NCBI GenBank assembly: GCA_016802835.1
Contig: JAEVHO010000010.1
Span: 1 to 33,575, forward strand
Reading direction: 5' to 3'
DNA: 33,575 bases
Source of the DNA: Micromonospora sp. ATA32
GTDB taxonomy: Bacteria; Actinomycetota; Actinomycetes; Mycobacteriales; Micromonosporaceae
The translations under genes were made by a program, and so were the position numbers. A model generated the notes under the pieces. That model did not search any database and was not told where the DNA came from. It worked only from the letters and a program-made list of their open reading frames with translations. Positions within the stretch are counted from its first letter, which is position 1. Every line of letters starts with the position of its first letter. Below are positions 9,643 through 28,418 of this stretch, in pieces.

Positions 9643-9693
9643 TTAATCGTCCGAACATTTGGGCTCTGAATGAAATCCCCTGGAGTTGAGACC

Positions 9694-10800
9694 GTGATCA
9701 AGCCATTCCGCATCGACATCCCCCAGGCCGACCTCGACGACCTGACTGACCGGCTCGCCCGCACCCGTTGGCCCAACGAGGTCGCCGACGCCGGGTTGGA
9801 CTACGGCTTCCCGCTGGCGCGGCTCAAGGAACTGGCCGAATACTGGCGCACCGGCTACGACTGGCGCGAGCATGAGGCCAAGCTCAACGAGCTTCCGCAC
9901 TTCACCACGGAGATCGAGGGCCAGAACATCCACTTCGTTCACGTCCGGTCTGCGAAACCGGACGCGCTCGCGCTGGTCCTCACCCACGGCTGGCCCGGTT
10001 CGTTCCTGGAGTTCCTCGACGTGATCGAGCCGCTGTCGCGCGACTTCCACCTGGTGATTCCGTCCATCCCGGGTTACGGCTTCTCCGGGCCGACCCACGA
10101 GCGCGGCTGGGATATCGTCCGGGTCGCGCGGGCCTGGGCTGAGCTGATGCGCCGTCTCGGGTACGAGCGCTATGGCGCGCAGGGTGGCGACTTCGGCTCC
10201 GGCATCTCCACGGCGCTCGGCGCGGTGGCACCCGAGCAGGTCGTCGGGGTGCACGTCAACTACCTGCCGACCCGGCCGGTCCCGGACGCCGACATTGAAC
10301 TGTCCGAAACGGACGAAGCTCGGCTGGACAAGGTCAGGCAGCTGATGGCGAATCGTCCGCCGTACCAGGCCCTGCAGGCCGCCACCCCGCAGACCATCGG
10401 CTACGCGCTGACCGACTCGCCGGTCGGCCAGCTGGCCTGGATCGCCGAGCGCTTCGCCCAGTGGACGGACCCTCGCTCGCAGATCAGTGACGAGCGGATG
10501 CTCACCGACATCTCGCTGTACTGGCTGACCGCCACCGCGGCTTCCTCGGCGCGGCTGCACCGCGAGGCTCCGCGGCGGATCGAGCCGTGCCCGGTACCGG
10601 TTGGCGTGGCGGTGTTCGCACACGACATCACGCAGTCGGTGCGACCGCTGGCCGAGCGGCTGTACGACATCAGGCACTGGTCGGAGTTCGAGCGCGGCGG
10701 CCACTTCGCCGCGATGGAGGTGCCGGAACTGCTCGCCGAGGACGTCCGGGACTTCTTCCTTACCCACATCAAGTACGACTACCGGGTCGCCACCCGCTAA
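9694..10800 (+). CDS. Epoxide hydrolase (EHN domain plus alpha/beta hydrolase)
   Basis: 368 residues from the GTG at 9694. The N-terminal epoxide-hydrolase domain is IKPFRIDIPQADLDDLTDRL with RTRWP. The alpha/beta hydrolase core has the oxyanion motif THGWPGS (about 97-103), IPSIPGYGFSGP, and the nucleophile in GAQGGDFGSG (Asp about 166). The catalytic His lies in ERGGHFAAME near the C-terminus. It opens epoxides to vicinal diols. The GTG start is preferred because a GGAG lies 8 bases before it and homologues begin at the IKPF stretch; an in-frame ATG at 9670 has no ribosome site. It is divergent from a MarR gene. The substrate is not evident; it may detoxify arene or alkene oxides produced by the oxygenases nearby. 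Confidence 0.9.
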   Translation: MIKPFRIDIPQADLDDLTDRLARTRWPNEVADAGLDYGFPLARLKELAEYWRTGYDWREHEAKLNELPHFTTEIEGQNIHFVHVRSAKPDALALVLTHGWPGSFLEFLDVIEPLSRDFHLVIPSIPGYGFSGPTHERGWDIVRVARAWAELMRRLGYERYGAQGGDFGSGISTALGAVAPEQVVGVHVNYLPTRPVPDADIELSETDEARLDKVRQLMANRPPYQALQAATPQTIGYALTDSPVGQLAWIAERFAQWTDPRSQISDERMLTDISLYWLTATAASSARLHREAPRRIEPCPVPVGVAVFAHDITQSVRPLAERLYDIRHWSEFERGGHFAAMEVPELLAEDVRDFFLTHIKYDYRVATR

Positions 10801-11472: not shown

Positions 11473-12087
11473 TCAGTGGCGCCCGATCGAGCCGACCCAG
11501 CTCTCGGTGAGGACGTCCAGCATCTCGTCGTGCCCGACACCCCAGGTCCCCGGTGTCCAGTTACGCGCGACGTAGTCGAGCTCCGTGATGGCGATGACGC
11601 TGCGAATGTGGCGGGTGCCGGCTGGAAACCGGTCGGCACGGTCGAGCCCGTCCCTGATGTCACCGATGGCCTCGTTCAGCCACTCGTCGAGGAGCGTGCG
11701 GATCTCGGGGTCGACGGCTGCGGCCTCGAAGGCGGCCGTGGTGTAGGGGCGAATCGTGTCCCATCGTTCCGAGGTCGACGCGAGCCACGCGCGGATCCGC
11801 TCTCGCGAGCCGTCCTCGACCACGGCAACCAACTCACGCTCGGTCGACCCGTGCTCGGCAGAGGGGACCCGGTCGAGCGCGGCGTTGAGCCGCTCCGAGA
11901 TGAGGGCCTTCATCAGATCGACCTTGGAGGGGAAGTACGCATAGAAGGTCACCCGCGTCGTTCCCGCCGCCGACGCGATGTCGTCGACCGTCGTCGTCGC
12001 ATAGCCCTTGGACACGAACAGGTCCAGGCCAGCGTCGAGCAGGAGCTTTCGCGTCATCTCCTTCTGTGCCTCACGAAGCGTCGCCAT
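11473..12087 (-). CDS. TetR-family transcriptional repressor
   Basis: 204 residues from the ATG at 12085-12087 (a second in-frame ATG at 12099 would add four residues). The HTH is MTRKLLLDAGLDLFVSKGYA, then TTTVDDIASAAGTTRVTFYA and YFPSKVDLMKAL (about 10-60). A helical ligand-binding domain follows. It is divergent from an MFS exporter gene across about 195 bases with an inverted repeat. That is the standard arrangement for a drug- or metabolite-responsive repressor of the exporter. The ligand is unknown. The 200 bases downstream (11274-11472) hold no gene I can support. Confidence 0.88.
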   Translation of the reverse strand: MATLREAQKEMTRKLLLDAGLDLFVSKGYATTTVDDIASAAGTTRVTFYAYFPSKVDLMKALISERLNAALDRVPSAEHGSTERELVAVVEDGSRERIRAWLASTSERWDTIRPYTTAAFEAAAVDPEIRTLLDEWLNEAIGDIRDGLDRADRFPAGTRHIRSVIAITELDYVARNWTPGTWGVGHDEMLDVLTESWVGSIGRH

Positions 12088-12283: not shown

Positions 12284-13894
12284 ATGACGCAGACCGCTGC
12301 GCGCAAGCAGGGCTACACCGCCACGGTGGTCGCCGGCTGCTTCGCCGTACTCCTCGCGCAAGTGGCGTGCTCGCTGCCTGGCGCGCTCAATGGCACCCTC
12401 CAGCAGGAGTTCCAGACCACCGGTGCCGAACTGACCTGGATCACGGCCGCCTTCGCCATCCCCATGGTCGTCTTCGAGCTGACCACCGGCGTGATCGGTG
12501 ACCTGTTCGGTCGCAAGCGGCTGCTGCAGGTGGGTGCTCTGCTGACCGTTGCCGGCTCGCTCGTCAGCTACGTCGCCGAGACGGTCCAGATCCTGTGGGT
12601 CGGGCAGGTCGTCGCCGGACTCGGAGCCGCGATCCTCTACCCGATCTCGCTCGCCATGCTGGCCGCGGTCAGCCCGTCGCAGGAGTCACGTTCCAAGGCC
12701 ATCGCCGTCTGGGCCGGCTTCCTCTCGATCGGTGCGGCGATCTCCCCGCTGATGGGTGGGTGGCTCGCTGCAGAGGGCAACTGGCGAACGTCGTACCTCG
12801 TGGTGGTCGCGGCGGCGGTCATCTCGATCGGGATCACCCAGGTCGCTTCCGACTCCTCGGCGCCGGAGGGGCGCAAGCTGGACATCCCGGGCCAGGTCAC
12901 GCTGGCCCTCGGCCTGATCGCCATCCTCTTCGCTGCCACGCAGGGCTCCGAGGCCGGCTTCGCCCGCCCCGAGATCATCGGCGCCTTCGTCGCGGGCCTC
13001 TTGCTCCTCGGTGCCTTCGTCGTCATCGAGCTGCGGACCGACGTCCCGCTGCTGCACCTCAACATCTTCGCCAACCGTTCCTACTCGGTCGTCGCGATCG
13101 CCACGGTGGTCGGCATGTTCGCGTTCCTCGCGACCTGCTACTCGATGAGCATCTGGCTCGGCGCAATCCAGCACCAGAGCGCTCTGAAGATCGGCGTGCT
13201 GTTCCTGTTCATCCAGGGGCCAGCCTTCCTGCTGGTGCCGCTCGTCTCCCACCTGATCCGGAACTTTTCGCCTCGTTGGGTGCTCACCGTCGGCTTCGCC
13301 CTCATCGCCGTCAGCGGCATCTGGTGCTCGACGTTCGACATTCACGACATGAGCTGGACGCAGTTCATCGGTCCCATGCTGGCCCTCGGTGTCGGCTTCG
13401 CGCTCACCGTCGGCTCGATCACGGCCGTCGCGATCAACACCGTTCCGATGCGGCTCGCCGGCATGGCCAGTGCCACCACCAACCTGCTCCGCGACTTCGG
13501 CTTCGCCCTCGGTCCGGTGCTCATCGCCGCGTTCGCGGTCAGCCGTGCGAACAGTGAGCTGAGCGCTGGTGTCGGCGGGGCGATCGGCGAGTCCGGGCTC
13601 ACGCCGCCGTACACCGAGATCGCCGGGGGCATCGCAGATGGGGGTGGCGCCATGGCGATCAACTCGATGCCGGTCGTGCCCGGCGCCGGTCCGGACCTGC
13701 CGCCGGTGCCGATGCCGGAAAGCCTCCACGTGCTCGCGTTCGAGTCGCTCGGCAGCGCCTACAACCTCGCCTTCCTGGTCGCCGGCCTCTGTGCCGCCGC
13801 TGCCGCGGCTCTGACGCTGTTCGGACTCTTCGGCTCGAAGCGTGCCGACGTCGAGGAGCCGCTGATCGACGAGGAGCTCGTCCCCGCCGGGTGA
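12284..13894 (+). CDS. MFS transporter, DHA2-type drug/metabolite exporter
   Basis: 536 residues with about 14 predicted membrane segments, typical of the DHA2 (EmrB/QacA-like) proton antiporters. Family motifs include the loop 2-3 motif GDLFGRKRLLQVG (about 71-83), motif C-like GAAISPLMGGWLAA (about 150) and NWRTSYLVVV. An extended hydrophilic loop of about 60 residues precedes the last membrane segment (GGAIGESG to LPPVPMPESLH). The ATG at 12284 follows an AAGGAAG site by about 9 bases; a longer frame upstream lacks this. It is divergent from TetR. Within a catabolic region it may export toxic aromatic substrate or intermediates, or act as an uptake system for them. Confidence 0.88.
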   Translation: MTQTAARKQGYTATVVAGCFAVLLAQVACSLPGALNGTLQQEFQTTGAELTWITAAFAIPMVVFELTTGVIGDLFGRKRLLQVGALLTVAGSLVSYVAETVQILWVGQVVAGLGAAILYPISLAMLAAVSPSQESRSKAIAVWAGFLSIGAAISPLMGGWLAAEGNWRTSYLVVVAAAVISIGITQVASDSSAPEGRKLDIPGQVTLALGLIAILFAATQGSEAGFARPEIIGAFVAGLLLLGAFVVIELRTDVPLLHLNIFANRSYSVVAIATVVGMFAFLATCYSMSIWLGAIQHQSALKIGVLFLFIQGPAFLLVPLVSHLIRNFSPRWVLTVGFALIAVSGIWCSTFDIHDMSWTQFIGPMLALGVGFALTVGSITAVAINTVPMRLAGMASATTNLLRDFGFALGPVLIAAFAVSRANSELSAGVGGAIGESGLTPPYTEIAGGIADGGGAMAINSMPVVPGAGPDLPPVPMPESLHVLAFESLGSAYNLAFLVAGLCAAAAAALTLFGLFGSKRADVEEPLIDEELVPAG

Positions 13895-13976: not shown

Positions 13977-14003
13977 ATTAACCTGCTGGTTAATCTCTTG
14001 ACA
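13977..14003 (+). promoter_or_regulatory. Palindrome overlapping a -35-like TTGACA before the phosphotriesterase-like operon
   Basis: ATTAACC-TGCT-GGTTAAT is a perfect 7-base-arm inverted repeat (13977-13994). Four bases later comes TTGACA (13998-14003), an ideal -35 hexamer. The -10 region about 17 bases on is poor, as is common where activators or repressors act. This AT-rich island in GC-rich DNA sits 80 bases before the first gene of a nine-gene operon and is the likely control point for it. Confidence 0.5.
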
Positions 14004-14081: not shown

Positions 14082-15074
14082 ATGGGCGCCCAGACTGCCG
14101 AGAACACCACCGGCAACACCGTCAACACCGTCCTTGGCCCCGTTCCCGCGCAGCAGTTGGGGGTCGTCGCGGTTCACGAGGCTCTGCTGTCGGTCGTTCC
14201 GGGGGCGGAGTACGCCTTCGACGTCACCATCGACCGGGCCGAGATCTTCGAGACCCTGGCCGAGAAGCTGAAGGACTTTCGCAGGCACGGCGGGGGGACG
14301 ATCGTCGACAGCACCGGCATGTTCCACGGGCGCGATGTGAGGCTGTACGAGGCCCTCTCGCGCACGACTGGCGTGCACATCGTCGCGTCGGCGGGCCAGG
14401 GCCCCGAGGAGATGCTCGGCGGCTACTTCCTGACGCCGCAGACCAATCCGCCGACGCCATGGCCGGCCGAGAAATTCGCCGAGCTCTTCGCCAAGGAGGT
14501 CACCGAGGGCATGGTGGTTCCCCGTGTCGAGCGGCGGGGTGCCGCGGGCCTGGTGGCCACGACCGCGACCCTCGCGGGCATGACCGCGACCGACGAGAGC
14601 CTGTTCCGCGGTGCGGCCCGCGCCGCCATGACCACCGGTGTCCCGGTGTCCATCCGCTACGGTGACGACGCCGTGCGCGACCTCGAGGTCGTCCTGGACG
14701 AGAAGCTGCCGGCCGCCCGCGTCGTCGTCGGCGGGCTCGATCGCAAGGACGCCGTCGCCGCCGGTGCGCCGCTCGAGGTCGCGACGCGCGGCGCCTACGT
14801 CGGCCTGGACCATGTGGGCGCCGAGGACGACGCCCACATCACCGACGCCGAGCGCGCCGCCCTGGTCGCCGAGCTGGTCGAGGCCGGCCACGGCAACCGG
14901 ATCCTGCTGTCGAGCAACGCGATCGGCGTCGCCAAGGGACACCCGGCCAACGACCTGCCCTACAGCTACGTCCTGACCACGTTCGTCCCCCTCCTCAAGG
15001 CACAGGGCCTCGGCGACGAGGACGTCCGGCGGATCCTCGTCGACAACCCGCGCGACCTGCTGTCGGTGCGCTGA
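14082..15074 (+). CDS. Phosphotriesterase-like protein lacking metal ligands
   Basis: 330-residue TIM-barrel protein of the amidohydrolase/phosphotriesterase group, clearly paralogous to the next gene (shared VNTVLGP, LGxVAVHE, TGVHIVAS, AARAA-TTGVP, VDNPxDxL). Family ligands are missing when aligned to that neighbour: the second His of HxH is Ala34, the bridging Lys is Ala159, the two barrel His are Arg192 and Gly218, and the Asp is Asn279. Only His32 remains. Hydrolysis by the usual binuclear metal centre is therefore unlikely. The frame is intact and the gene well spaced, so it is probably maintained as a structural or regulatory partner of the active paralogue, or has a metal-free activity. 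ATG at 14082 has GAGAGGAG 8 bases before it. Confidence 0.8.
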   Translation: MGAQTAENTTGNTVNTVLGPVPAQQLGVVAVHEALLSVVPGAEYAFDVTIDRAEIFETLAEKLKDFRRHGGGTIVDSTGMFHGRDVRLYEALSRTTGVHIVASAGQGPEEMLGGYFLTPQTNPPTPWPAEKFAELFAKEVTEGMVVPRVERRGAAGLVATTATLAGMTATDESLFRGAARAAMTTGVPVSIRYGDDAVRDLEVVLDEKLPAARVVVGGLDRKDAVAAGAPLEVATRGAYVGLDHVGAEDDAHITDAERAALVAELVEAGHGNRILLSSNAIGVAKGHPANDLPYSYVLTTFVPLLKAQGLGDEDVRRILVDNPRDLLSVR

Positions 15075-15123
15075 GCGCGCGACAGCCCAAGACATCAAGT
15101 TTCTCCTCTCAAAGGTGAGTGTT

Positions 15124-16074
15124 GTGTCGAGAGTCAACACCGTCCTGGGGCCGATCCCGACCGAAGAACTGGGTCTCGTGGCCGTCCACGAGCACATCGG
15201 GTACGGCATGCCGGGCTCCGAGCTGGACGCGAAGTGGTGGAAGAGCCCCGAGCAGCGGTACGAGGAGACCGTCCCGAAGCTGCGCCAGTTCCACGACTAC
15301 GGCGGCGGCACGTTCGTCGACGCAACCGGCATCTGCAACGGCCGAGACGTCGACTATTACAAGTCACTGTCCGCGAAGACCGGCGTGCACATCGTCGCCA
15401 GCACCGGCTTCGTCGGCGGCGACACCGCGCTGCCGTTCTTCGCCCGGGCGAGCGTGGAATACCTGGCCGAGCACTTCATCCACGAGATCACCGTCGGCAT
15501 CGGCAACACCGGCGGCCGGGCCGGCATCATCAAGGTCGGCGTGAGCCGCGGTGGCCGCATGACGGACCTGGACAAGCGCATCTACCGCGCTGCCGCACGG
15601 GCCGCCCTGACCACCGGCGTGCCGATCCTGACCCACCTGGCGATCGACGCCGAGACCGCGATCGCGATCTTCAATGCGGAGGGTCTCCCGCTCGACCGCG
15701 TCCTGTTCGGGCACGTCGACGACGGCGTCAACGCCGACAAGACCCGCGACACCTGGATCGCGGAGCAGGGCGGCCGGGTCGGGTTCGACACCTTCGGCTA
15801 CGAGACCGAGCTCCCGGACCCGCCGTTCTGGGCCCGTCCGCGCAAGGAGCGGCTGGACCACTTCCTCCGGTTCATCGGTCAGCACCTGGACAAGGCGCTC
15901 GCCTCGGCCGATGCGAACTGCAGCGCCCTGGGCTGGCCGGGCGTGAAGGGCCACACCGTCAACTACATCTTCGAGGACCTCATCCCGGACCTCCGCGCTG
16001 CCGGTCTCGACGAGGCCGTCATCAAGACCATCTTCGTCGACAACCCCGCTGACTTCCTGACGATTCAGAACTGA
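15124..16074 (+). CDS. Phosphotriesterase-like metal-dependent hydrolase (lactonase/esterase candidate)
   Basis: 316 residues. All expected binuclear-metal ligands are present: His22 and His24 (VAVHEHIGYG), Lys137 to be carboxylated (GIIKVGVSRG), His171 (ILTHLAID), His197 (LFGHVDD) and Asp263 (ASADANCS). Members hydrolyse lactones, organophosphates or carboxylic esters; lactone or enol-lactone opening fits the catabolic neighbours, but the substrate is not fixed by sequence. The GTG at 15124 is chosen because AAAGGTG lies about 7 bases before it and the start then matches the paralogue (SRVNTVLGP). An in-frame GTG at 15115 falls within that ribosome site. It lies 49 bases after the ligand-less paralogue and 13 bases before an FAD monooxygenase. 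Confidence 0.85.
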   Translation: MSRVNTVLGPIPTEELGLVAVHEHIGYGMPGSELDAKWWKSPEQRYEETVPKLRQFHDYGGGTFVDATGICNGRDVDYYKSLSAKTGVHIVASTGFVGGDTALPFFARASVEYLAEHFIHEITVGIGNTGGRAGIIKVGVSRGGRMTDLDKRIYRAAARAALTTGVPILTHLAIDAETAIAIFNAEGLPLDRVLFGHVDDGVNADKTRDTWIAEQGGRVGFDTFGYETELPDPPFWARPRKERLDHFLRFIGQHLDKALASADANCSALGWPGVKGHTVNYIFEDLIPDLRAAGLDEAVIKTIFVDNPADFLTIQN

Positions 16075-16087
16075 CAAGGACAGAACC

Positions 16088-17206
16088 ATGCAGACCTCAG
16101 ACCTCAAGAACCTGAACGTCGCCATCGTCGGCGCGGGGTACGCCGGTGCGGCGGCGGCCAAGGCTCTCTCGCTCCTCGGTGCCGACGTCAATGTGTACGA
16201 GCAGGCGAACCAGATCCGGGAGGTCGGGGCCGGCATCGGCCTGCGTCCCTCCACCATGGACCGGTTCCGTCAGTGGGGGGTCTTCGACGCGATCGCCAAG
16301 GTGAGCTCGCCGAGCGACTACTTCGAGATCCTCACCGCCACGGGCGACCCGATCATGAAGGAGGCGTGGCCGGAGATCGACACTTTCGGCGCAAAGACCC
16401 ACCTGATCCACCGCGGGGACTTCATCGATGCCCTGGTGGGGGTGCTCCCCGAAGGCATGGTGCGCCTCGGTCACAAGCTGGAGACCATCGAGGACCAGGG
16501 CGACCGCTCGGTCCTCACCTTCGTCAACGGAACGACCGTCGAGGCCGACCTGGTCGTCGGCGCGGACGGCATCAAGTCGGTGGTGCGCCAGCAGCTCTTC
16601 AGCGACAAGGGCCCGGTGTTCTCCGGTGAGCACGCCTACCGCGTGGTGATCTCCGCCGACGATGCCTACGGGATGTGCGTCGACGACAACCTGCGGATGT
16701 ACATCGGCCGGGGCACGAAGGTGTACTTCCTGCCGCTGCGCCACCGCAACCAGGTCTCGTTCGACATCACCGCCCTGTGCCCGGACAGTACCTGGGCACC
16801 TCAGGTCACGAGGGACGATCTCCTGGCGACGGTGAAGGGCTTCGACGAGCGGATCGCGAACATCACCCGCGACCTCGACATGGACGCCGTGAACGTTCGC
16901 GCGGTCTACGACATCGACCCGGTCGACACGTGGCACTCGGACTCCGTCGTCCTCGTCGGCGACGCGGCCCACTCGATGCTGCACCACCAGGGCCAGGGCG
17001 CTAACTCGGCGATCCTGGACGCGGGCGCGCTCGCCGACGCCCTTGCCCAGGCCGACTCCGTCAAGGAAGCGCTGGTCCGGTACCAGGCGACCCGCAAGCC
17101 GGTGACCGACGAGCTGCAGCGCATCTCGCGCCAGGGGTGGAGCGAGGACGAGGTCGACGACGTCTTCCCCGGGCAGCGGCCCGCGTCCCAGCAGCCGCAG
17201 GCCTGA
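16088..17206 (+). CDS. FAD-dependent aromatic-type monooxygenase
   Basis: 372-residue class A flavoprotein monooxygenase. The N-terminal Rossmann is VAIVGAGYAGAAAAKAL (GxGxxG at 15-20), the DG motif is VVGADGIKSVVRQ (about 158), and the ribityl-binding motif is LVGDAAHSMLHHQGQGANSA (about 292). It resembles salicylate/hydroxynicotinate hydroxylases in layout but differs clearly from the 3-hydroxybenzoate hydroxylase at the left of the window. It probably hydroxylates, or oxidatively decarboxylates or dearomatises, a phenolic or heteroaromatic ring. An AAGGA lies 10 bases before the ATG. The next gene starts 4 bases after its stop. It is the only oxygenase in the operon, so it likely sets the chemistry the four hydrolases act on. 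Confidence 0.85.
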   Translation: MQTSDLKNLNVAIVGAGYAGAAAAKALSLLGADVNVYEQANQIREVGAGIGLRPSTMDRFRQWGVFDAIAKVSSPSDYFEILTATGDPIMKEAWPEIDTFGAKTHLIHRGDFIDALVGVLPEGMVRLGHKLETIEDQGDRSVLTFVNGTTVEADLVVGADGIKSVVRQQLFSDKGPVFSGEHAYRVVISADDAYGMCVDDNLRMYIGRGTKVYFLPLRHRNQVSFDITALCPDSTWAPQVTRDDLLATVKGFDERIANITRDLDMDAVNVRAVYDIDPVDTWHSDSVVLVGDAAHSMLHHQGQGANSAILDAGALADALAQADSVKEALVRYQATRKPVTDELQRISRQGWSEDEVDDVFPGQRPASQQPQA

Positions 17207-17210
17207 CGCC

Positions 17211-18137
17211 ATGGCGCTGCACCCCGAGATCGCCACGGTCCTGGCGAGCCTGCCGGCCCCACCCGACGGCCCGCTCGACCCGGTCGCCATGCGCGCGGCC
17301 GAAGAGGCGCAGGTACCGCCGGCCGAGGAGCGCCTGCCGCTCCATTCCGTCGAGGACACGACCGCGCAGACCCCGATGGGTGAGGTGCCGGTGCGGATCT
17401 ACACGCCGACCCAGGCCACGTCGTACGGGCTGCTGGTCTACTTCCACGGCGGCGCCTTCTTCCTCGGCAGCCTGGACACCCACGACCACGTCGCGCGGTC
17501 GCTGGCGAAGGAGACCGGGCTCAAGGTCGTCTCCGTCGGCTACCGCCGGCCGCCCGAGGCCGCCTTTCCGGCTGGCCTCCATGACTGCTACGCGGTGGTG
17601 CGATGGGCCGCCGAGAACGGCGAGCGCCTAGCCTGGGACGGCGCCGATCTCGTCATCGCCGGTGACAGCTCGGGCGGCACCTTCGTCGCGGCCGTCGCCG
17701 CGATGGCCCACGACGAGGGATTCGATCGCATCACGCACCAGGTCCTCTTCTACCCCTCGCTCGATCTCGACTTCGACGTCGACCGCTACGCCTCGCTGCG
17801 CGAGAACGCCGTCGGCTACGGCCTGGAGACGGCGGGGCTGAAGCCGTTCAACGCCTTCTACCTCGGCAGCGGCGCCGACCCCGCCGATCCGCTGGTCTCG
17901 CCGATCAAGCGGGCCGACCTCACCGGGCTGCCGTCCGCGCTGATCGTGACCGCGGAGTACGACCCGCTGCGTGATGAGGGCGAACTCTACGGCCAGCGCC
18001 TCAAGGAGGCCGGAGTCGATGCCACGGTGAGTCGCTACGCGGGCGCCGGTCACGGATTCGTGCAGCACTTCTCCTGGGTCCCGGCGTACCACCGGGTCTT
18101 CGAGGAGACGGCCGCCTTTCTGCGGAGCGGGTCATGA
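17211..18137 (+). CDS. Alpha/beta hydrolase, hormone-sensitive-lipase type esterase
   Basis: 308 residues. HSL-family signatures are the oxyanion motif YFHGGAFFLGS (79-81 HGG), the nucleophile elbow GDSSGG (Ser153), the catalytic Asp in AEYDPLRDEG (Asp251), and the catalytic His in AGHGFVQHF (His281). The triad is complete. Such enzymes hydrolyse short-chain or aryl carboxylic esters in the cytoplasm. The start is 4 bases after the monooxygenase stop, and its own stop overlaps the next ATG (ATGA), so it is translationally coupled on both sides. Its substrate is presumably an ester or lactone of the operon's pathway. Confidence 0.88.
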   Translation: MALHPEIATVLASLPAPPDGPLDPVAMRAAEEAQVPPAEERLPLHSVEDTTAQTPMGEVPVRIYTPTQATSYGLLVYFHGGAFFLGSLDTHDHVARSLAKETGLKVVSVGYRRPPEAAFPAGLHDCYAVVRWAAENGERLAWDGADLVIAGDSSGGTFVAAVAAMAHDEGFDRITHQVLFYPSLDLDFDVDRYASLRENAVGYGLETAGLKPFNAFYLGSGADPADPLVSPIKRADLTGLPSALIVTAEYDPLRDEGELYGQRLKEAGVDATVSRYAGAGHGFVQHFSWVPAYHRVFEETAAFLRSGS

Positions 18138-19072
18138 CGCACGTGAACGTTCATCCCCTGGTCTCGCCGTGGGGTCGGTTCGGTCTGTACAGCTTCTTCA
18201 TCGACGCCCCCGAGCCGGCCATCGTCGACACCGGGATCGCCTCCTCGCCCGCCGAGGGCATGGTCCCCGCGCTCGAGGCCGTCGGCCGCCGCATCGAGGA
18301 CGTGCGCTGGATCCTGCTGACCCACGGTCACATCGACCACGTCGGCGGCGCCTACGCCCTGTGGGAACTCACCGGCCGGCGCGCGCAGGTGGTCATCCAC
18401 GAGGCCGACGCCGCGATGCTGCGCTCGCGCCGGGCGCACGTGGACGAGTACCTCCACGGTCGGGCGCAGTACCTGAACGACCCGGCGGGCGAGGCGAAGG
18501 TGACGGCCGCGGCCGATGCGGTCATCTCCGGCGAGATGGAGCCGACCATGCTGCTCAAGGGCGGCGAGACCCTCTCGCTCGGTGGCGACGTCACCGTCTC
18601 CGTCCACTCGATCCCAGGCCACACGCCCGGATCGGTGGCCTATGTGATCGACGGCCAGCGCTCCGTGTTCGTCGGCGACGCCGTCCAGGTCCACGGGGCC
18701 GCCAACGGCTTCCCCGGCTACGTGGATCCGGTCGCGTACCGCGCCAGCCTGCGGCACCTGCGCGACGAGATCCGTCCGCAGCACCTGTACCTCGGGCACC
18801 CGTACCGCCGCGCAGACGGCCTGCCGTACGGCGTCGAGCTCGACGCCGACCTGGCTCGGGAGGCGCTCCAGGGGAGCCTGGACATCGAGGCCGGTGTCAG
18901 CGAAGCGGTCAGCCGCTGTCTTCAGGACGGCCTGCAGGAGACGGACTCGCCGTACTCCCCGTTCGCCCCTGTCGCCGAGAGGCTCGGCTACACCGGCGAC
19001 CCCACGCTCGAGCCGTCGCCGTTTCTCACGTCGATGCACGGCTACCGCACGCACTTCAACCAGAATTCGTGA
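18134..19072 (+). CDS. Metallo-beta-lactamase-fold hydrolase
   Basis: 312 residues. The zinc motif is LTHGHIDHVGG (His64, His66, Asp68, His69), followed by IPGHTPGSVAYV (third His), FVGDAV (Asp) and LYLGHPYR (His). The binuclear zinc site looks complete. The fold serves lactonases, thioesterases, glyoxalase II and arylsulfatases, so the reaction cannot be fixed. In this operon a lactone or CoA-thioester hydrolase role is plausible. The C-terminal 90 residues are helical and family-variable. The start overlaps the esterase stop; the CocE-like gene follows 24 bases after the stop. Confidence 0.85.
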   Translation: MTHVNVHPLVSPWGRFGLYSFFIDAPEPAIVDTGIASSPAEGMVPALEAVGRRIEDVRWILLTHGHIDHVGGAYALWELTGRRAQVVIHEADAAMLRSRRAHVDEYLHGRAQYLNDPAGEAKVTAAADAVISGEMEPTMLLKGGETLSLGGDVTVSVHSIPGHTPGSVAYVIDGQRSVFVGDAVQVHGAANGFPGYVDPVAYRASLRHLRDEIRPQHLYLGHPYRRADGLPYGVELDADLAREALQGSLDIEAGVSEAVSRCLQDGLQETDSPYSPFAPVAERLGYTGDPTLEPSPFLTSMHGYRTHFNQNS

Positions 19073-19096
19073 CAGAGGACAAGGAACTTCGCACTC

Positions 19097-20827
19097 ATGG
19101 CCGACTTCCAGACGATCCAGGCGGGCGAGCAGACGATTGCCGTCCGCAAGGACCTGCAGGTGCCGATGCGCGACGGGGTCACCCTCGCCGTGGACGCCTA
19201 CCACGGCACGGAGGACAAGCCGCGGCCGGCCCTGATCGCCATGAGCGCCTACGGCAAGGAGCTGCAGGCCCTCGCCCTCACCACGCCGCCGCAGCGTCGC
19301 CCCAGCCCGATGTGGGACGGCTGTATCGAGGCCGGTGACATCGCGCGCGTCGTCAAGGAGGACTACGTCCACGTCATCGGTGACATGCGTGGCACCGGTG
19401 ATTCCGGCGGCGTGATGATCGGCAACTACAACTTCGGTGGTGTTCCCCAGGGTCAGGACCTGTACGACCTCGTCGAGTGGGTCGCCGAGCAGCCGTGGTG
19501 TGACGGAAACGTCGGCATGATCGGCATCTCCTACTTCGGGTCGATGCAGGTGCTCGCTGCGGCCGAGCGGCCGCCACACCTGAAGGCGATCTTTGTCAGC
19601 GGCGGCCATTTCGACTTCTACGAGACCACCTACCACGGCGGCATCATGTGGTTCATGCCGCGGGCTGCCCGCGAGGGACGCGGTGGCGACTCCGGCATCG
19701 CGCACACCAACGTCAAGTCCCGCATGCAGGAGGTCCACTCCCCGGAGGAGCTCAAGAAGCTCGTCGACGAGCGACTCCAGGACCCGGACGTGGCCGCGTG
19801 GCCGAACCTCGTGCACGTGCTGAAGTACCCGAAGAACCGCGAGTTCTGGTTCGACATCGTGATGAACAACCTCGACGGGGAGTGGTATGAGGAGCGCAAC
19901 CCCATCACGCTGGCCGAGAACATCGACATCCCGGTCTATCTGCAGATCGACCAGGGGCGCGGCTGGACCGTGGACGGCCACATCGAGCTGTTCAACGTGC
20001 TGAAGGGTCCCAAGAAGCTGGACATCGGCTCCTACCCGCCGATGCAGTCGCGCCCCTGGATCGAGGAGCACGACAAGATGTTCCGCTGGTACGAGTACTG
20101 GCTCAAGGGTATCGACAACGGCATCATGGACGAGCCGGCCGTGAGCGTCTTCGTAGAGGGCTCGCGTGAGGTGGTCACCGCAGAGCAGTGGCCGCCGAAG
20201 GAGATCGAGTACAAGCCGCTGTACCTGCGCCCGCGCCACAAGCTCTCCTCGGAGCCTGAGCTGATGGGCGCGGAGCACGCCGCCCCGGACGGTTTCTACC
20301 AGGCACCGCTGACGGTGACCGACAAGGTGGAGACTGTCAGCTGGAGCACCGAGCCGTTCGATGAGCCTACGGAGCTCATCGGCACCGGTGCGGCGCACCT
20401 GTTCGCCGAGATCGACCAGGATGACACGAATTTCATCATGCGGCTGTGGGACGTCGCCCCGAACGGAAGCCGTCGGCTGATCACCACAGGGTTCCTCAGG
20501 GCATCGCACCGCGAGTTGGACGACCGGACGACCGAGGGCAACCCGTACCACCCGCACATCCGCGCCGTGCCGGTGGAGCCCGGGAAGATCGAGGAGTACG
20601 TCCTGCGGCTCTACCCGTTTGCGGCGACGTTCAACCCCGGCCACCGGCTGGTGGTGGAGCTGTCCAACGACGAACCGCTGGCCGACGCGCACAACGCGCT
20701 GCTGCCGCCGGACGCATTCCACCTGCCGGTGGGTCGCCCCGTCACCCACAAGATCTATCGCGACGCCGCCCACCGGTCCCGGCTCGTGCTGCCGTTCACG
20801 GCGCGCACCGCGGTGGAGAAGAGGTAG
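19097..20827 (+). CDS. CocE/NonD-family hydrolase (X-Pro dipeptidyl-peptidase S15 fold)
   Basis: 576 residues. The N-terminal alpha/beta hydrolase domain carries MRDGVTLAVDAY, the conserved DMRGTGDSGG, and the nucleophile elbow GMIGISYFGSMQ (Ser145). A helical cap follows, and GRGWTVDGHIELFNVLKG supplies the probable Asp. The C-terminal beta-sandwich of the PepX_C type runs from about 340 (FAEIDQDDTNFIMRLWDV, PGHRLVVELSND). The usual GPWxHG with the catalytic His is replaced by SYPPMQSRPW; a nearby EEHDKMFRW might supply the His. Members cleave cocaine, glutaryl-lactam and other esters or amides. No signal peptide, so cytoplasmic. The next gene starts 7 bases after the stop. Confidence 0.85.
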   Translation: MADFQTIQAGEQTIAVRKDLQVPMRDGVTLAVDAYHGTEDKPRPALIAMSAYGKELQALALTTPPQRRPSPMWDGCIEAGDIARVVKEDYVHVIGDMRGTGDSGGVMIGNYNFGGVPQGQDLYDLVEWVAEQPWCDGNVGMIGISYFGSMQVLAAAERPPHLKAIFVSGGHFDFYETTYHGGIMWFMPRAAREGRGGDSGIAHTNVKSRMQEVHSPEELKKLVDERLQDPDVAAWPNLVHVLKYPKNREFWFDIVMNNLDGEWYEERNPITLAENIDIPVYLQIDQGRGWTVDGHIELFNVLKGPKKLDIGSYPPMQSRPWIEEHDKMFRWYEYWLKGIDNGIMDEPAVSVFVEGSREVVTAEQWPPKEIEYKPLYLRPRHKLSSEPELMGAEHAAPDGFYQAPLTVTDKVETVSWSTEPFDEPTELIGTGAAHLFAEIDQDDTNFIMRLWDVAPNGSRRLITTGFLRASHRELDDRTTEGNPYHPHIRAVPVEPGKIEEYVLRLYPFAATFNPGHRLVVELSNDEPLADAHNALLPPDAFHLPVGRPVTHKIYRDAAHRSRLVLPFTARTAVEKR

Positions 20828-20833
20828 TCGAGC

Positions 20834-22020
20834 ATGGCATTCGTCTACGCAGCGGCCCGCACTCCCTTCGGCCGGTTCAGCGGAGCGCTGGCCGGCGTCC
20901 GTCCCGACGACCTCGCAGCGACCGCGATCACCGGTGTGCTCGCGAAGGCGCCGGCGCTGGATCCGGCGAGATCGGCGAGATCGTGTGGGGTTGCGCGAAC
21001 CAGGCTGGCGAGGACAACCGCAACGTCGGCCGGATGGCCGGACTGCTCGCCGGAGTGCCGGTGTCGGTGCCTGCGACCACGGTCAACCGGCTGTGCGGCT
21101 CGTCGCTCGATGCTGCGATCATCGGGTCCCGCACGATCGACACCGGCGACGCCGATGTCGTGCTTGTCGGCGGCGTGGAGTCGATGACCCGGGCGCCGTG
21201 GGTGCTGCCAAAGCCGGACCGAGCATTTCCTGCCGGCAACACAACCGCCGATTCGACAACGCTCGGCTGGCGCCTGGTCAACTCGCGGATGCCGTCGGAG
21301 TGGACGGTGTCGTTGGGGGAGTGCAACGAGCAGCTGCAGGAGCGGTTCTCGATCTCGAGAGAGCGGCAGGACGAGTTCGCTGCGCGGTCGCACCGGCTCG
21401 CGGCGGCGGCATGGGACGAGGGCTTCTACGACGACCTGGTGGTTCCGGTCGACGGCGTCGACCTGACCCGCGACGAAGGCATCCGCGCCGACTCCACGCC
21501 TGAGAAGCTCGCCGGCCTCAAGCCGAGCTTCCGGCCCGACGGCACGATCACCGCTGGCAACGCATCGCCGCTCAACGACGGGTCGGCGGCGTTGCTGCTC
21601 GGCTCGAAGGCCGCTGCCGCGCAGATCGGGCTTGACCCGGTTGCCCGGATCGTGGGGCGTGGTGCGTTCGCGCTGGAGCCGCAGGCCTTCGGGTTCGCTC
21701 CGGTCGAGGCTGCCAACAGAGCGCTGGAACGGGCCGGCATCGGCTGGGATCAGGTGAGTGCTGTCGAGCTCAACGAGGCCTTCGCCGTCCAGTCGCTCGC
21801 GTGCGTGGACGCCTGGAAGGTCGACCCCGAGATCGTCAACGTCAAGGGTGGCGCGATCGCAATCGGCCATCCGCTCGGCGCCTCGGGCGCCCGCATCCTC
21901 GGCACCCTCGCCAAGGTTCTGGTCGCGAAGCGCGAGCGGTACGGCGTCGCCGCGATCTGCATCGGCGTGGGTCAGGCACTCGCCATGGTCCTCGAGAACG
22001 TCACTGGAGGAGCGGCGTGA
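20834..22020 (+). pseudogene. pcaF: Beta-ketoadipyl-CoA-type thiolase with a one-base frameshift
   Basis: With one base restored this is a 395-residue thiolase. It should cleave beta-ketoadipyl-CoA to succinyl-CoA and acetyl-CoA. The N-terminus (MAFVYAAARTPFGRFSGALA) ends in one frame at about 20968. The rest, starting IGEIVWGCANQAGEDNRNVG (typical of PcaF), continues in the next frame. GCGAGATC here would read GCGGAGATC if intact, so a single G is missing. Acyl-binding Cys88 (NRLCGSS), the His motif GHPLGASGAR and the CIGVGQ Cys are all present downstream. All else is well preserved, so it is either very recently broken or a sequencing indel. The stop overlaps the CoA-transferase start (GTGA). 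Other 3-ketoacyl-CoA thiolase substrates are possible. Confidence 0.85.
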
Positions 22021-22712
22021 GCAAAGCGCAGATCTTCGCATCGCCGGACGAGGCGGTGAGCGTCGTCAAGGATGGCGACATCGTTCTGGTGGGTGGCTTC
22101 GGACTCGCCGGCATGCCATTCGACCTGATTGATGCCTTGATCCGGCACGGCGCAGGCGACCTCACCATCGTGTCCAACAACGCCGGCAACGGCGACGTAG
22201 GCCTGGCCGCCCTGCTGAAGGCCGGCCAGGTGCGGAAGGTCCTGTGCTCCTTCCCCCGGCAGGTCGACTCCTACGTCTTCGACGACCTCTACCGTCGCGG
22301 GGAGATCGAGCTCGAGGTCGTCCCGCAGGGCAACCTCGCCGAGCGGATGCGGGCGGCCGGGGCGGGCATCGGGGCGTTCTACTGCCCGACGGGCGTCGGC
22401 ACGCCGCTTGCCGAGGGCAAGGAGACCCGCACGATCGACGGACGTGATTACGTCCTCGAGTACCCGATCAAGGGTGATGTCGCCCTGATTTCCGCTCACA
22501 TTGCCGACACGATGGGCAACCTCGTGTACCGCAAGACCGCCCGAAACTTCGGCCCGGTGATGGCCACGGCCGCCACGACGACCGTCGTCCAGGTCTCGTC
22601 GATCGTGGACGCGGGGCAAATCGACCCGGAGGTCGTCGTCACCCCGAGCATCTACGTCGACCGTGTGGTCCAGGTCGAGCCGCGTCACTACACCGTGCAG
22701 GGAGCCCGCTGA
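22017..22712 (+). CDS. pcaI: 3-oxoacid (beta-ketoadipate-type) CoA-transferase, subunit A
   Basis: 231 residues. The family I CoA-transferase alpha subunit moves CoA from succinyl-CoA to a 3-oxo acid. Motifs are VGGFGLAGMPFDLIDALIRH (CoA-binding GGFG), LTIVSNNAGNGDVGLAALL (PcaI-like), and GAFYCPTGVGTPLAEGKE. GTG at 22017 overlaps the thiolase stop and the stop overlaps the subunit B ATG. The combination with a PcaF-like thiolase points to beta-ketoadipate, but acetoacetate or another 3-oxo acid cannot be excluded. No intradiol dioxygenase or other pca gene lies in the window. Confidence 0.85.
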   Translation: MSKAQIFASPDEAVSVVKDGDIVLVGGFGLAGMPFDLIDALIRHGAGDLTIVSNNAGNGDVGLAALLKAGQVRKVLCSFPRQVDSYVFDDLYRRGEIELEVVPQGNLAERMRAAGAGIGAFYCPTGVGTPLAEGKETRTIDGRDYVLEYPIKGDVALISAHIADTMGNLVYRKTARNFGPVMATAATTTVVQVSSIVDAGQIDPEVVVTPSIYVDRVVQVEPRHYTVQGAR

Positions 22713-23350
22713 TGCCACTCAATCCCGACCAGCTCGCGGCCCGGGTTGCGCAGGACATCGAGCCGGGCAGTTTCGTCAACCTCGGCATCGGTCAGCCCAC
22801 CAAGGTCGCCGACCACCTTCCGGCCGAGATCGGCGTCGTCCTCCACACCGAGAACGGCATGCTGGGCATGGGCCCCGCGGGTGTCGGCGACGAGGTCGAC
22901 CCTGAACTCACCAATGCCGGCAAGGTGCCGGTCACCGAGCTGCCTGGAGCGGCGTATTTCCACCACGCAGACTCCTTCGCCATGATGCGTGGCGGCCACC
23001 TCGACGTGTGCGTCCTGGGTGCCTTCCAGGTCTCGGCGAGCGGTGACCTCGCCAACTGGGACACCGGCGCGCCCGGCTCGATCCCCGCCGTCGGCGGCGC
23101 GATGGATCTGGCGATCGGCGCCAAGCGGGTCTACGTGATGATGACGCTCTTCGCGAAGGACGGCAGCCCGAAGCTCGTGCCCACCTGCACCTACCCCCTC
23201 ACGGGCGTCGGCTGTGTCAGTCGTGTCTACACCGACCACGCCGTGTTCGAGATCACCCCCGATGGCGTCCGCGTGATCGACTCGTTCGACACTTCCGTCG
23301 AGGAGCTTCGCGCCCGGCTGGAAGTCCCGCTTGTGGTCGACGTCCACTGA
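22712..23350 (+). CDS. pcaJ: 3-oxoacid (beta-ketoadipate-type) CoA-transferase, subunit B
   Basis: 212 residues, beta subunit partner of the preceding gene. The catalytic glutamate lies in HTENGMLGMGP (about residue 48), preceded by FVNLGIGQPTKVADHLP. AAYFHHADSFAMMRGGHLDV and GAMDLAIGAKRV are further family blocks. The ATG at 22712 shares one base with the subunit A stop (TGATG). It is the last gene of the nine-gene run; DNA after its stop loses coding character at once, and no clear terminator is seen. Confidence 0.87.
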   Translation: MPLNPDQLAARVAQDIEPGSFVNLGIGQPTKVADHLPAEIGVVLHTENGMLGMGPAGVGDEVDPELTNAGKVPVTELPGAAYFHHADSFAMMRGGHLDVCVLGAFQVSASGDLANWDTGAPGSIPAVGGAMDLAIGAKRVYVMMTLFAKDGSPKLVPTCTYPLTGVGCVSRVYTDHAVFEITPDGVRVIDSFDTSVEELRARLEVPLVVDVH

Positions 23351-25136: not shown

Positions 25137-25946
25137 CTAGCGCTCGGCCACATGCTCGAGGTATCCGGCGATCGATGCTTCGAGCACCTCTCGGCCGGGC
25201 CGGGACCACAGCCCGGCGTGGAAGACCTCCACCTCGACCGGCCCGGTGTAGCCGGTGGCGTCAACAGCTTCCCGGAACCGGCGCAGTTGCACGCAGCCCT
25301 CGCCGGGCAACCCTCGCCCGAGCAGGACGCCTTCGGGCAGGGGGGTGATCCAGTCGGCGGCCTGAAAGCAGGCGATGCGCCCTTCCCGTCCGGCCCGGTC
25401 GATCTGGGTCCATACCTGGTCGTCCCACCACAGGTGGTAGGTGTCGACGACGACCCCCACTGCCTGCGGCGGGTAGGGTGACGCGAGATCCAGTGCCTGG
25501 CCGAGGCTCGCCACCACGCATCGGTCGGAGCAGAACATCGGGTGCAGCGGCTCGATCGCCAGCTGGACGCCCGCATCGAGCGCGTGTGGTACCAGCGCCC
25601 CGATCGCGTCGCGGACGTTCTTCCGAGCCGCGTCGAGGTCACGGCTGCCGTCGGGCAGACCGCCGGAAACGAGCACTAGCGTTGGCGCGCCGAGCGTGGC
25701 CGCCTCGTCGATGGCGCGTCGGTTCTCATCCAACCAGCCGGTTTGGTTGAAGAAGCCGCCGCGACACAGCGAGGTGACGGCCAAGCCGGCGTTGTGTATC
25801 AGCGACGCGGTCTTCTCCACGCCGTACGCGGCGGCCTCTTCCCGCCACAGGCCGACGCCGGTGACCCCGGCATCGACGCATCCGGCGACGAGGTCCTCCA
25901 TGGGCCAGTACTTCGCGGTCGCCTGGTTGAAGGAGAACCTAGTCAT
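25137..25946 (-). CDS. Sugar phosphate isomerase/epimerase (AP-endonuclease-2-like TIM barrel)
   Basis: 269 residues. The xylose-isomerase-like TIM barrel has FSFNQATAKYWPMEDLVAGC at the start, GVTGVGLWREEAAAYGVEKT, LVLVSGGLPDGSRDLDAAR, and the metal-site strands LAIEPLHPMFCSDR (Glu), VGVVVDTYHLWWD (Asp, His), and a terminal PVEVEVFHAGLW (Glu). The ligand set looks intact. It probably interconverts keto or epimeric sugars in a catabolic route. ATG at 25946 matches the usual family start. A GTG at 25967 overlapping the upstream gene's stop (GTGA) would add seven residues and is also possible. Third gene of the LacI-controlled operon. Confidence 0.83.
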   Translation of the reverse strand: MTRFSFNQATAKYWPMEDLVAGCVDAGVTGVGLWREEAAAYGVEKTASLIHNAGLAVTSLCRGGFFNQTGWLDENRRAIDEAATLGAPTLVLVSGGLPDGSRDLDAARKNVRDAIGALVPHALDAGVQLAIEPLHPMFCSDRCVVASLGQALDLASPYPPQAVGVVVDTYHLWWDDQVWTQIDRAGREGRIACFQAADWITPLPEGVLLGRGLPGEGCVQLRRFREAVDATGYTGPVEVEVFHAGLWSRPGREVLEASIAGYLEHVAER

Positions 25947-25963
25947 TGCTTTCGTCCCGGCGC

Positions 25964-27136
25964 TCACTGCGGCACCCCCACGGTGGTGAGCCAGGCGCGT
26001 GTCCGGTGCGCGGCGAGTGCCGCGTCGGGCAGCAGCCCGGCGGCGTCGGCCAGCCGGAGGAGCTCCATGAGGTGCCGCGGTGACCGGCCGCTGTGCAGGC
26101 CACCGACCATCGTGAAGTGGTCCTGATGGCCGGCGAGCCAGGCGAGGAAGACAATGCCGGTCTTGTAGTAGTACGTGGGTGCGCTGAAGATGTGCCGGGC
26201 CAGCGGTACGGTCGGGGCGAAGATCTGCTCGTACCGGTCGAGATCGCCCGCGTCGAGCGCCCGCAGGGCGGCCGCCGCCGGCGGCGCGATGGCGGCGAAG
26301 ATGCCGAGCAGGGCGTCGGAATAGGTCCGGTCTGCGGGCTGCGGTTGGGGCCCATCGCCCCGGATCAGGGCCGGGTAGTGGAAGTCGTCGCCGGTGTAGA
26401 GACGCACGCCTGCCGGCAGCCGGCGGCGCAGCCCGATCTCGAACTCCTCGTCGAGCAGCGACACCTTGATGCCGTCGACCTTGCTCGCATGCGCCTCGAT
26501 CAGGGTAAGTACGGTTTCGGTGGCCACGTCGAGGTCGGGCGAGCCCCAGTAGCCGGCGAGCGCCGGGTCGAACATGGGCCCCAGCCAGTGCAGCACGACC
26601 GGCCCGTCGGCGTGACGCAACAGTTCGCCGTACACGGTCAGGTAGTCCTCGGCCGTGGTGGCCGTCGCGGCGAGATGGCGGCTGCACATGAGGACCGGTC
26701 GGGCGCCCGCCGCCTGGACGTCGTCTAGCTGCTCGGTGTAGGCCTTGCGAACCTCGTCGAGGGTGGCGGGGCCGTCGGGCAGCTGGTCGGTGGCCACTCC
26801 GGCGACGATCAGGCCGTCGGCCTCGCGCGCTTCCCGGCCGCTGCGCCGGATGAGTTCCCGGGTCGTCGGATAATCCAGGCCCATGCCGCGCTGCGCGGTG
26901 TCCATCGCCTCCGCGACCCCGAAGCCGTGCCGCCACAGGTGGTGCCGGAACGCCAGGGTGGCGTCCCAGTCCAGCACGGCCGGGTGCCCGGGGGTGTTGT
27001 CAGCTGCGGCGTCGGCGACGACGTGTGCCGCCGCGTAGGCGACGCGGCTGGTGAACTGCGCACCGGGTACCGCGAACTCCCCGCCCGTGCCACTGAGCGC
27101 GAACCGTCCGTCGGGCAGGTTGACACTCGTGTTCAT
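25964..27136 (-). CDS. DUF993 family protein (dihydrodipicolinate-synthase-like aldolase fold)
   Basis: 390 residues matching DUF993, a poorly characterised family distantly related to dihydrodipicolinate synthase/aldolase TIM barrels. Recognisable stretches are AVLDWDATLAFRHHLWRHGF (about 52), GVAEAMDTAQRGMGLDY, VLHWLGPMFDPALAGYWG (about 195), VDGIKVSLLDEEFEIGLRRR (Lys about 234, the position expected of a Schiff-base lysine) and LYTGDDFHYPALI. The role is probably an aldol-type step on a modified sugar acid, by inference from the family and neighbours. The ATG at 27134-27136 overlaps the oxidoreductase stop (ATGA). Such proteins recur beside Gfo/Idh oxidoreductases and sugar isomerases. Confidence 0.83.
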   Translation of the reverse strand: MNTSVNLPDGRFALSGTGGEFAVPGAQFTSRVAYAAAHVVADAAADNTPGHPAVLDWDATLAFRHHLWRHGFGVAEAMDTAQRGMGLDYPTTRELIRRSGREAREADGLIVAGVATDQLPDGPATLDEVRKAYTEQLDDVQAAGARPVLMCSRHLAATATTAEDYLTVYGELLRHADGPVVLHWLGPMFDPALAGYWGSPDLDVATETVLTLIEAHASKVDGIKVSLLDEEFEIGLRRRLPAGVRLYTGDDFHYPALIRGDGPQPQPADRTYSDALLGIFAAIAPPAAAALRALDAGDLDRYEQIFAPTVPLARHIFSAPTYYYKTGIVFLAWLAGHQDHFTMVGGLHSGRSPRHLMELLRLADAAGLLPDAALAAHRTRAWLTTVGVPQ

Positions 27137-28283: not shown

Positions 28284-28299
28284 GCAGGCCCTCCTTGGT

Positions 28300-28313
28300 A
28301 AGCGCTTTCCTAG
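28300..28313. promoter_or_regulatory. LacI-type operator before the Gfo/Idh operon
   Basis: AAGCGCTTTCCTAG with flanking GGT/ACC symmetry (GGTAAGCGCTTTCCTA) contains the palindromic core AAGCGCTT typical of LacI/GalR family operators. It lies 17 bases upstream of the oxidoreductase ATG, over the likely start of transcription or ribosome site. The same 14 bases recur at 29657-29670. Confidence 0.7.
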
Positions 28314-28340
28314 TACCGTAGCGGTCGGCGATCTGTCACA

Positions 28341-28356
28341 GCAAGGGCTTTCCTCA
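28341..28356. promoter_or_regulatory. Second, degenerate LacI-type operator in the divergent gap
   Basis: GCAAGGGCTTTCCTCA matches the GCAAGCGCTTTCCTAG of the ThuA promoter at 13 of 16 positions. It lies 28 bases beyond the first operator start and about 9 bases before TATGCT (28365-28370), a possible -10 box for the LacI gene. Binding here would give autoregulation. Confidence 0.45.
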
Positions 28357-28418
28357 CGCTCCGCTATGCTGTGGCAAACGTCCGGGTTGCGGGCAGTTAA
28401 CGGGGAGGGACCGGACAC

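Follow-up and report, generated by a model that had tools for sequence, protein, structure and literature searches.

A conserved six-gene core with a probable phosphotriesterase-fold pseudoenzyme in a putative aromatic-catabolic module of Micromonospora sp. ATA32

Which pathway is served by a run of nine closely packed genes in the actinobacterium Micromonospora sp. ATA32, and which of these genes belong together? The genes lie at positions 14082-23350 of contig JAEVHO010000010.1. The window analyzed here is this whole stretch of 33,575 nucleotides, which is one whole contig of a 6.1-Mb genome in 891 contigs. A first-pass annotation made from the sequence had read the nine genes as a single catabolic operon with one oxygenase, four or five hydrolases and 3-oxoadipate-type end enzymes. 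The conserved unit is the first six genes, PTE1-PTE2-FMO1-HSL-MBL-CocE (14082-20827). We read this core as part of a horizontally spread accessory aromatic-catabolic module, with a probability of roughly one half. Its first gene, PTE1, is kept under purifying selection and very probably does not encode a metallohydrolase, as judged from the loss of metal ligands.

Gene content of the operon

All nine genes are located on the plus strand, and both Pfam and NCBIfam agree at the family level with each family name given in the first-pass annotation. The genes are as follows:

14082-15074, plus strand: PTE1, phosphotriesterase-fold protein, probable pseudoenzyme (Pfam PF02126, 132.5 bits)
15115-16074, plus strand: PTE2, phosphotriesterase-family metallohydrolase with all ligands (PF02126, 161.3 bits)
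16088-17206, plus strand: FMO1, group A flavin monooxygenase of the NicC/TrlE clade (by profile and fold comparison)
17211-18137, plus strand: HSL, hormone-sensitive-lipase-type esterase (PF07859, 220 bits; LipP1 model, 305 bits, cut-off 350)
18134-19072, plus strand: MBL, metallo-beta-lactamase-fold hydrolase (PF00753, 68 bits; THGHIDH conserved)
19097-20827, plus strand: CocE/NonD-family hydrolase with a variant active-site region (TIGR00976, 234.6 bits, cut-off 66.3)
20834-22020, plus strand: thiolase gene, frameshifted near 20968 (pcaF model split over two frames)
22017-22712, plus strand: 3-oxoacid CoA-transferase subunit A, PcaI-like (TIGR02429, 345 bits)
22712-23350, plus strand: 3-oxoacid CoA-transferase subunit B, PcaJ-like (TIGR02428, 265 bits)

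The spacings along the nine genes are 40, 13, 4, -4, 24, 6, -4 and -1 bases. With the GTG start taken for the second gene (PTE2), the largest intergenic gap is 40 bases, not the 49 given previously. The thiolase gene, however, is frameshifted: the match to the pcaF model is split, with model positions 3-47 at 20837-20971 and positions 47-400 at 20968-22002 in another frame. Either a true mutation or an assembly error in this 891-contig genome may be the cause. The frame is intact in other loci, for example in L042, which scores 420 bits on pcaF (cut-off 597).

Conservation and spread of the six-gene core

Genome contigs from GTDB were scanned with PTE1 and 134 relatives were found. The best 80 of the 134 were studied as loci; all are actinobacterial by title, so that more distant hosts may be hidden. 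Together with the window, a Caballeronia locus (L024) and one further locus counted twice (L006 and L028), these make up 84 rows. The synteny search in actinobacteria that the first-pass annotation had suggested found all six core genes in identical order and strand in 70 of the 84 rows, which excludes a chance arrangement. MBL alone is inverted in nine rows. The core is incomplete in the remaining five, four of which are short (L094, L107, L006) or end inside the core (L028), and one of which (L096) carries a deletion. In L096, from Streptomyces sp. 1-11, CocE directly follows PTE1, and PTE2, FMO1, HSL and MBL are gone with no run of N, an apparent deletion. No published operon with this gene order was found among the matches listed in openly licensed full-text literature, a body of text that leaves most subscription journals outside, and to this extent the order can still be called undescribed.

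The core is an accessory unit with a patchy distribution. Close relatives of PTE1, PTE2 and FMO1 occur in the same three of 61 related genomes, in an all-or-none manner, and the closest cluster-bearing relative is genome G010. Of 396 genomes sampled from the phylum, two have PTE1, its own genome included. A tblastn search of FMO1 against 72,556 plasmids retrieved one match at 60-80% identity, on plasmid p2 of Caballeronia insecticola, where FMO1 is 65% identical. The gene order on p2 is TetR, P450, ferredoxin, FAD reductase, PTE1, PTE2, FMO, HSL, MBL, CocE, an outer-membrane transporter and a major facilitator superfamily (MFS) gene. The outer-membrane protein after the core belongs to Phenol_MetA_deg, the MetA type of phenol-degradation operons. 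The presence of the core on a betaproteobacterial plasmid indicates horizontal spread.

Some loci differ within the core. In L077, L075 and L083, an MFS gene of the aromatic-acid/H+ symporter type (cluster c21, 6 loci) lies between HSL and the inverted MBL. In the Arthrobacter-type loci L077, L093, L099, L104 and L108, FMO1 shares just 61-63% identity with that of the window, against about 80% in the neighbors of these loci, as if FMO1 had been replaced.

PTE1 and PTE2

PTE1 and PTE2 share 36% identity with each other. The metal ligands of the family we take to be H55, H57, K169, H201, H230 and D301 in phosphotriesterase numbering. The HEH, Lys, His and His ligands are visible in the alignment, and the D301 column was placed by motif. 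PTE2 keeps all six ligand positions over 83 rows, with gaps in one row at H230 and in three rows at D301. PTE1 retains H55 alone (83 of 84 rows), and the other five ligands are lost in every row: H57 is replaced by Ala or Ser, K169 by Ala, Thr or Val, H201 by Arg, H230 by Gly, Asp or Ala, and D301 by Asn, Gly, Ser or Arg. As a control, 12 other genes of the family in the loci of 14 relatives keep all four histidines. The K169 and D301 columns of these control genes vary or misalign in several cases, partly as an alignment effect, so that the control is firm for the histidines.

The fold of PTE1 is predicted to be retained. Its model is a phosphotriesterase TIM barrel with a predicted local distance difference test score of 77.2, and it matches phosphotriesterase 5wcr with a Z of 34.9 over 301 residues at 27% identity. 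The median ratio of nonsynonymous to synonymous substitution rates, over 13 pairs of our own choosing, is 0.249 for PTE1, 0.147 for PTE2 and 0.302 for FMO1, and PTE1 is thus kept under purifying selection. Within PF02126, the phosphotriesterase and phosphotriesterase-like lactonase family, PTE2 shares the fold and the six ligand positions, whereas PTE1 shares the fold but differs by the five lost ligands and by its own conserved loop (105-152). Neither protein comes near the NCBIfam equivalog cut-offs (67-126 bits of 500 for OPH). The first-pass count of four or five hydrolases holds as far as several hydrolases are encoded, but PTE1 should very probably be taken out of it.

Known phosphotriesterase enzymes are homodimers. 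The simplest reading would be a putative two-chain enzyme built from a live and a dead paralogue, PTE2 and PTE1. Alternatively, PTE1 could be an independent enzyme with a non-metal chemistry, such as a lyase or isomerase using Arg192 and the loop 105-152. Arg192 is invariant, an arginine standing at the metal ligand His201 in all 84 rows, and ten residues in a row (112-121) are invariant in 37 sequences, in a region where the predicted model is unsure. These features, together with the purifying selection, would suit an enzyme in its own right. We nevertheless consider this unlikely: PTE2 comes after PTE1 in 83 of the 84 rows, no intact PTE1 locus standing alone was seen in the fetched data apart from the deletion locus L096, and the homodimeric state of the family makes a dimer of paralogues simpler.

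Genes recurring around the core

Partner genes of the 80 loci were counted up to 10 kb to either side, at identity thresholds of 35-50% that were chosen by us; the TetR and MFS counts therefore take in distant relatives. The window itself holds every recurring partner gene counted, including the following:

12284-13894, plus strand: DHA2-type MFS transporter (best NCBIfam match TIGR00711, 153.6 bits, below the cut-off of 230.2)
11473-12087, minus strand: TetR-family regulator (PF00440)
5632-6813, plus strand: cytochrome P450, CYP199-related (best PDB match PbdA 9g9q, 276 bits)
6810-6998, plus strand: small ferredoxin-like open reading frame (ORF), labeled by eye; an annotated ferredoxin lies at the matching place in Caballeronia
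6995-8131, plus strand: ferredoxin-reductase-type FAD protein (PF07992; 59% identical in Caballeronia)
8144-9064, plus strand: LysR regulator (PF00126, PF03466)
795-2063, minus strand: FMO2, 3-hydroxybenzoate 6-hydroxylase-like (L071, a relative with 84% identity, reaches 356.6 on NF006021 against a cut-off of 459)
2078-2701, minus strand: maleylpyruvate-isomerase-like protein (putative)
2701-3531, minus strand: fumarylacetoacetate-hydrolase (FAH)-family protein (PF01557 on relative L103)
3528-4685, minus strand: gentisate 1,2-dioxygenase-like protein (L051, a relative with 85% identity, reaches 253.7 on TIGR02272 against a cut-off of 442.1)

Near the core, the P450 occurs in 46 of the 80 loci, the reductase in 44 and LysR in 34. 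TetR-type genes are found in 65 loci, many of these genes at just 40-60% identity, and DHA2-type MFS genes in 38. The gentisate-dioxygenase-like gene and FMO2 each occur in 26 loci, and the isomerase-like and FAH-family genes each in 27. The thiolase is present in 17 loci, transferase subunit A in 20 and subunit B in 22. The boundaries drawn in the first-pass annotation were accordingly both too wide, with only six of the nine genes conserved as a unit and the thiolase and transferase genes accompanying it in just 17-22 of the 80 loci, and too narrow, with the P450, ferredoxin, reductase, LysR and gentisate-type genes of the window recurring with the core. Likewise, the P450 is a second oxygenase beside the single one counted before, and the statement that no ring-cleaving dioxygenase is present holds inside 14082-23350 but not for the window, where the gentisate 1,2-dioxygenase-like gene is encoded on the minus strand.

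FMO2 and the gentisate-dioxygenase-like, FAH-family and isomerase-like genes form one operon of the window (795-4685). Relatives of these genes match the fitting NCBIfam and Pfam models, yet below the equivalog cut-offs. At the family level, FMO2 and its neighbors fit the conversion of 3-hydroxybenzoate via gentisate to central metabolism. The gene kinds of this operon resemble those of the known 3-hydroxybenzoate/gentisate pathway, and 26-27 of the 80 loci carry them in the vicinity of the core; the known pathway is without the six-gene core.

Several further features of the window were noted. An ORF at 4752-5522, divergent from the gentisate-type operon, has the look of an IclR regulator (labeled by eye), and IclR genes recur elsewhere, in the 10 loci of cluster c15. 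Between LysR and TetR lie an epoxide-hydrolase-type gene and a MarR gene (9670-10800 and 9101-9580), which are not conserved with the core. A perfect palindrome, ATTAACCTGCTGGTTAAT, is located at about 13977-13994, some 90 bases upstream of PTE1. As a TetR operator it was ruled out, being present in the window only and in none of the other rows tested. Downstream, at 25137-32259, separate sugar/polyol-type genes encode a xylose-isomerase-like TIM barrel, a DUF993 protein and a Gfo/Idh/MocA oxidoreductase (minus strand), with a LacI regulator and a ThuA/GSDH protein on the plus strand; these genes were not seen conserved with the core. An RNA family search gave no match at gathering thresholds.

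FMO1 and the cytochrome P450

The profile neighbors of FMO1 are NicC (183.7 bits), TrlE (181.3 bits), salicylate hydroxylase (148.8 bits) and 3-hydroxybenzoate 6-hydroxylase (3HB6H; 125.7 bits). By fold, TrlE ranks first (Z of 40.2) and HpxO next (38.9). Among its eight best PDB relatives, hydroxylases that attack carboxyl-bearing or hydroxy-aryl carbons predominate. The fold is also shared with tetracycline destructases (Z of about 34), and TrlE, HpxO, 3HB6H and NicC are closer matches than the Tet(X) structures. The first-pass annotation had FMO1 oxidize a ring or a cyclic ketone; its place in the NicC/TrlE/salicylate hydroxylase group makes hydroxylation of an activated aromatic ring likelier and the cyclic ketone less likely.

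According to an excerpt of PMC11110157, TrlE carries out hydroxylation and decarboxylation at one carbon. The active-site trio of TrlE given there, Arg185, His213 and Tyr217, is not fully matched: FMO1 keeps Arg185 and has Lys211 and Leu215 in place of His213 and Tyr217, suggesting a related reaction on another substrate. Tropolone breakdown was considered in view of TrlE being nearest by fold and found no support; tropolone catabolism is not described in the excerpt of PMC7497051.

The P450 shares 62% identity with the P450 beside the Caballeronia core. Its nearest relatives of known structure are the PbdAB/CYP199A O-demethylases of p-methoxybenzoate (PMC11530827). The carboxylate clamp of PbdA (Arg84, Ser87 and Ser237 in an excerpt of that paper) aligns with a gap, Gly and Gln in the window P450; Gly79 is found in 47 of 48 rows and Gln227 in 46 of 48, and the rest are gaps. 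Demethylation of p-methoxybenzoate by this P450 was rejected, the clamp being missing throughout the set, and p-methoxybenzoate is probably not its substrate.

HSL, MBL and CocE

HSL and MBL keep their motifs. In CocE, the Ser motif GISYFG is conserved. In 79 of 80 rows, the usual catalytic-His region of the CocE/NonD family, which we take to be GPWxH, is replaced by G[PS]YPPMQSRP. Five sequences of greater distance all keep His325, which may, from this alignment, serve as a substitute catalytic His. CocE as a second dead enzyme was rejected, since His325 is invariant in relatives although the His region is altered, and CocE may be active. More distant CocE relatives (35-37% identity) were found on plasmids of Rhodococcus gordoniae and Cupriavidus basilensis (L113 and L114), where they adjoin genes for FAD enzymes and for either catechol 1,2-dioxygenase (catA) or an intradiol dioxygenase, which again points to aromatic catabolism.

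CoA-transferase, thiolase and the end product

CoA-transferase subunits A and B share 75% and 80% identity, respectively, with the subunits beside pcaC, pcaG and pcaH on a Mycobacterium adipatum plasmid. Both score above their subfamily cut-offs, although a match to these models does not define the substrate. This similarity to pca-linked enzymes makes 3-oxoadipate a likely, not proven, end product. The position of the thiolase and transferase genes varies, as far as the rough gene picks tell: they follow CocE in the window and in Nocardia loci and FMO2 in Streptomyces loci. Compared with the lower beta-ketoadipate pathway (PcaI, PcaJ and PcaF), the operon shares pca-like transferase subunits and a thiolase nearest to the pcaF models, but is without pcaHG, catA, muconate cycloisomerase, pcaC and pcaD. 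Pfam and NCBIfam searches of the operon proteins likewise yielded none of the intradiol dioxygenase, cycloisomerase, decarboxylase and enol-lactonase families.

Proposed route and alternative explanations

The cluster is real and conserved, and its kind, an aromatic-catabolic cluster, is already known. The earlier description of a catabolic set with a flavin oxygenase, several hydrolases and 3-oxoadipate-type end enzymes is supported. A route can be drawn from the protein families as follows. The P450, with its ferredoxin and reductase, would hydroxylate or dealkylate an aromatic substrate. FMO1 would then add a hydroxyl group to the hydroxy-aryl ring so formed, perhaps on a carbon that bears a carboxyl group and with release of CO2 like its NicC/TrlE relatives, giving an electron-rich ring that could tautomerize to ketones. 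PTE2, with PTE1 as a non-catalytic partner (in a heterodimer, or as an allosteric or substrate-binding subunit), would hydrolyze the activated ring or a lactone, and HSL, MBL and CocE would hydrolyze ester, lactone or acyl fragments. Succinyl-CoA and acetyl-CoA may arise from a 3-oxoadipate fragment through the action of the PcaI/PcaJ-like CoA-transferase and the thiolase, and a second, aromatic fragment may be passed to the 3-hydroxybenzoate/gentisate enzymes.

A more specific form of this route is doubtful and is put forward tentatively: the ring would be opened without a ring-cleaving dioxygenase, through over-hydroxylation by FMO1 and cleavage of the keto tautomer by the active/dead phosphotriesterase heterodimer, after which the hydrolases would yield 3-oxoadipate. 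The arithmetic fits a hydrolytic opening (trihydroxybenzene C6H6O3 + O + H2O = C6H8O5 = 3-oxoadipic acid). It is a matter of speculation that a two-part C7 + C6 phenolic, such as a xanthone or benzophenone, is the source of both gentisate and 3-oxoadipate.

Several observations weigh against a single aromatic-catabolic module. Of the three core-bearing related genomes, two have a close P450 relative and one (G056) carries the core without it. The distance correlations of PTE1 with the other genes are moderate (r 0.51-0.78), so the histories of the genes are in part independent. Of all models, those of pcaF score the thiolase best, yet it stays under their cut-offs, and identity between the thiolases of the core loci and the one that accompanies the M. 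adipatum pca genes is just 38-39%. In 51 of the 80 loci, the fetched stretch contains no gentisate-type genes; the 31-kb stretch of Caballeronia has none either and is also without a transferase. Thiolase/transferase genes are absent near the core in 57 of 80 loci. Both ends of the route may therefore lie elsewhere or be unrelated. The MFS and TetR genes also fit a role in detoxification.

One alternative is a patchwork, in which the core, the P450, the gentisate-type operon and the CoA-transferase serve different aromatics and became neighbors through gene-collecting aromatic-catabolic islands. The moderate distance correlations and the differing location of the thiolase and transferase genes, near the core in about a quarter of the loci, are what it would lead one to expect. 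We regard it as unlikely, given that the same gene kinds recur jointly in Micromonospora, Streptomyces, Nocardia, Actinomadura, Geodermatophilus and Arthrobacter and that P450, ferredoxin and reductase stand beside the core in Caballeronia as well.

Also unlikely is detoxification, in which a TetR-controlled DHA2 efflux pump, the P450, FMO1 and the hydrolases would inactivate a toxic natural product whose carbon is not meant for use: the frequent TetR-type and DHA2-type genes, the scores of the MFS protein on multidrug efflux models and the destructase fold of FMO1 speak for it, but Tet(X) ranks low among the relatives of FMO1, PcaIJ-like and gentisate-type genes recur near the core, and some Arthrobacter-type loci have in the operon an MFS gene of the aromatic-acid symporter type instead (332 bits, cut-off 418.55). 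Xanthone and juglone routes were also considered and found no support among the literature matches listed, and there was no evidence for pyrethroid or organophosphate breakdown.

Implications

If the reading as an aromatic-catabolic module is right, many soil actinobacteria, and through transfer also a betaproteobacterial plasmid, carry a catabolic module to which no substrate has been assigned and which may include a hydrolytic opening of aromatic rings. If PTE1 is a non-catalytic partner of PTE2, the pair would show cleanly, and in a form open to testing, that the phosphotriesterase family can have a pseudoenzyme subunit. The conserved gene list can also help annotators to stop naming these genes organophosphate hydrolases.

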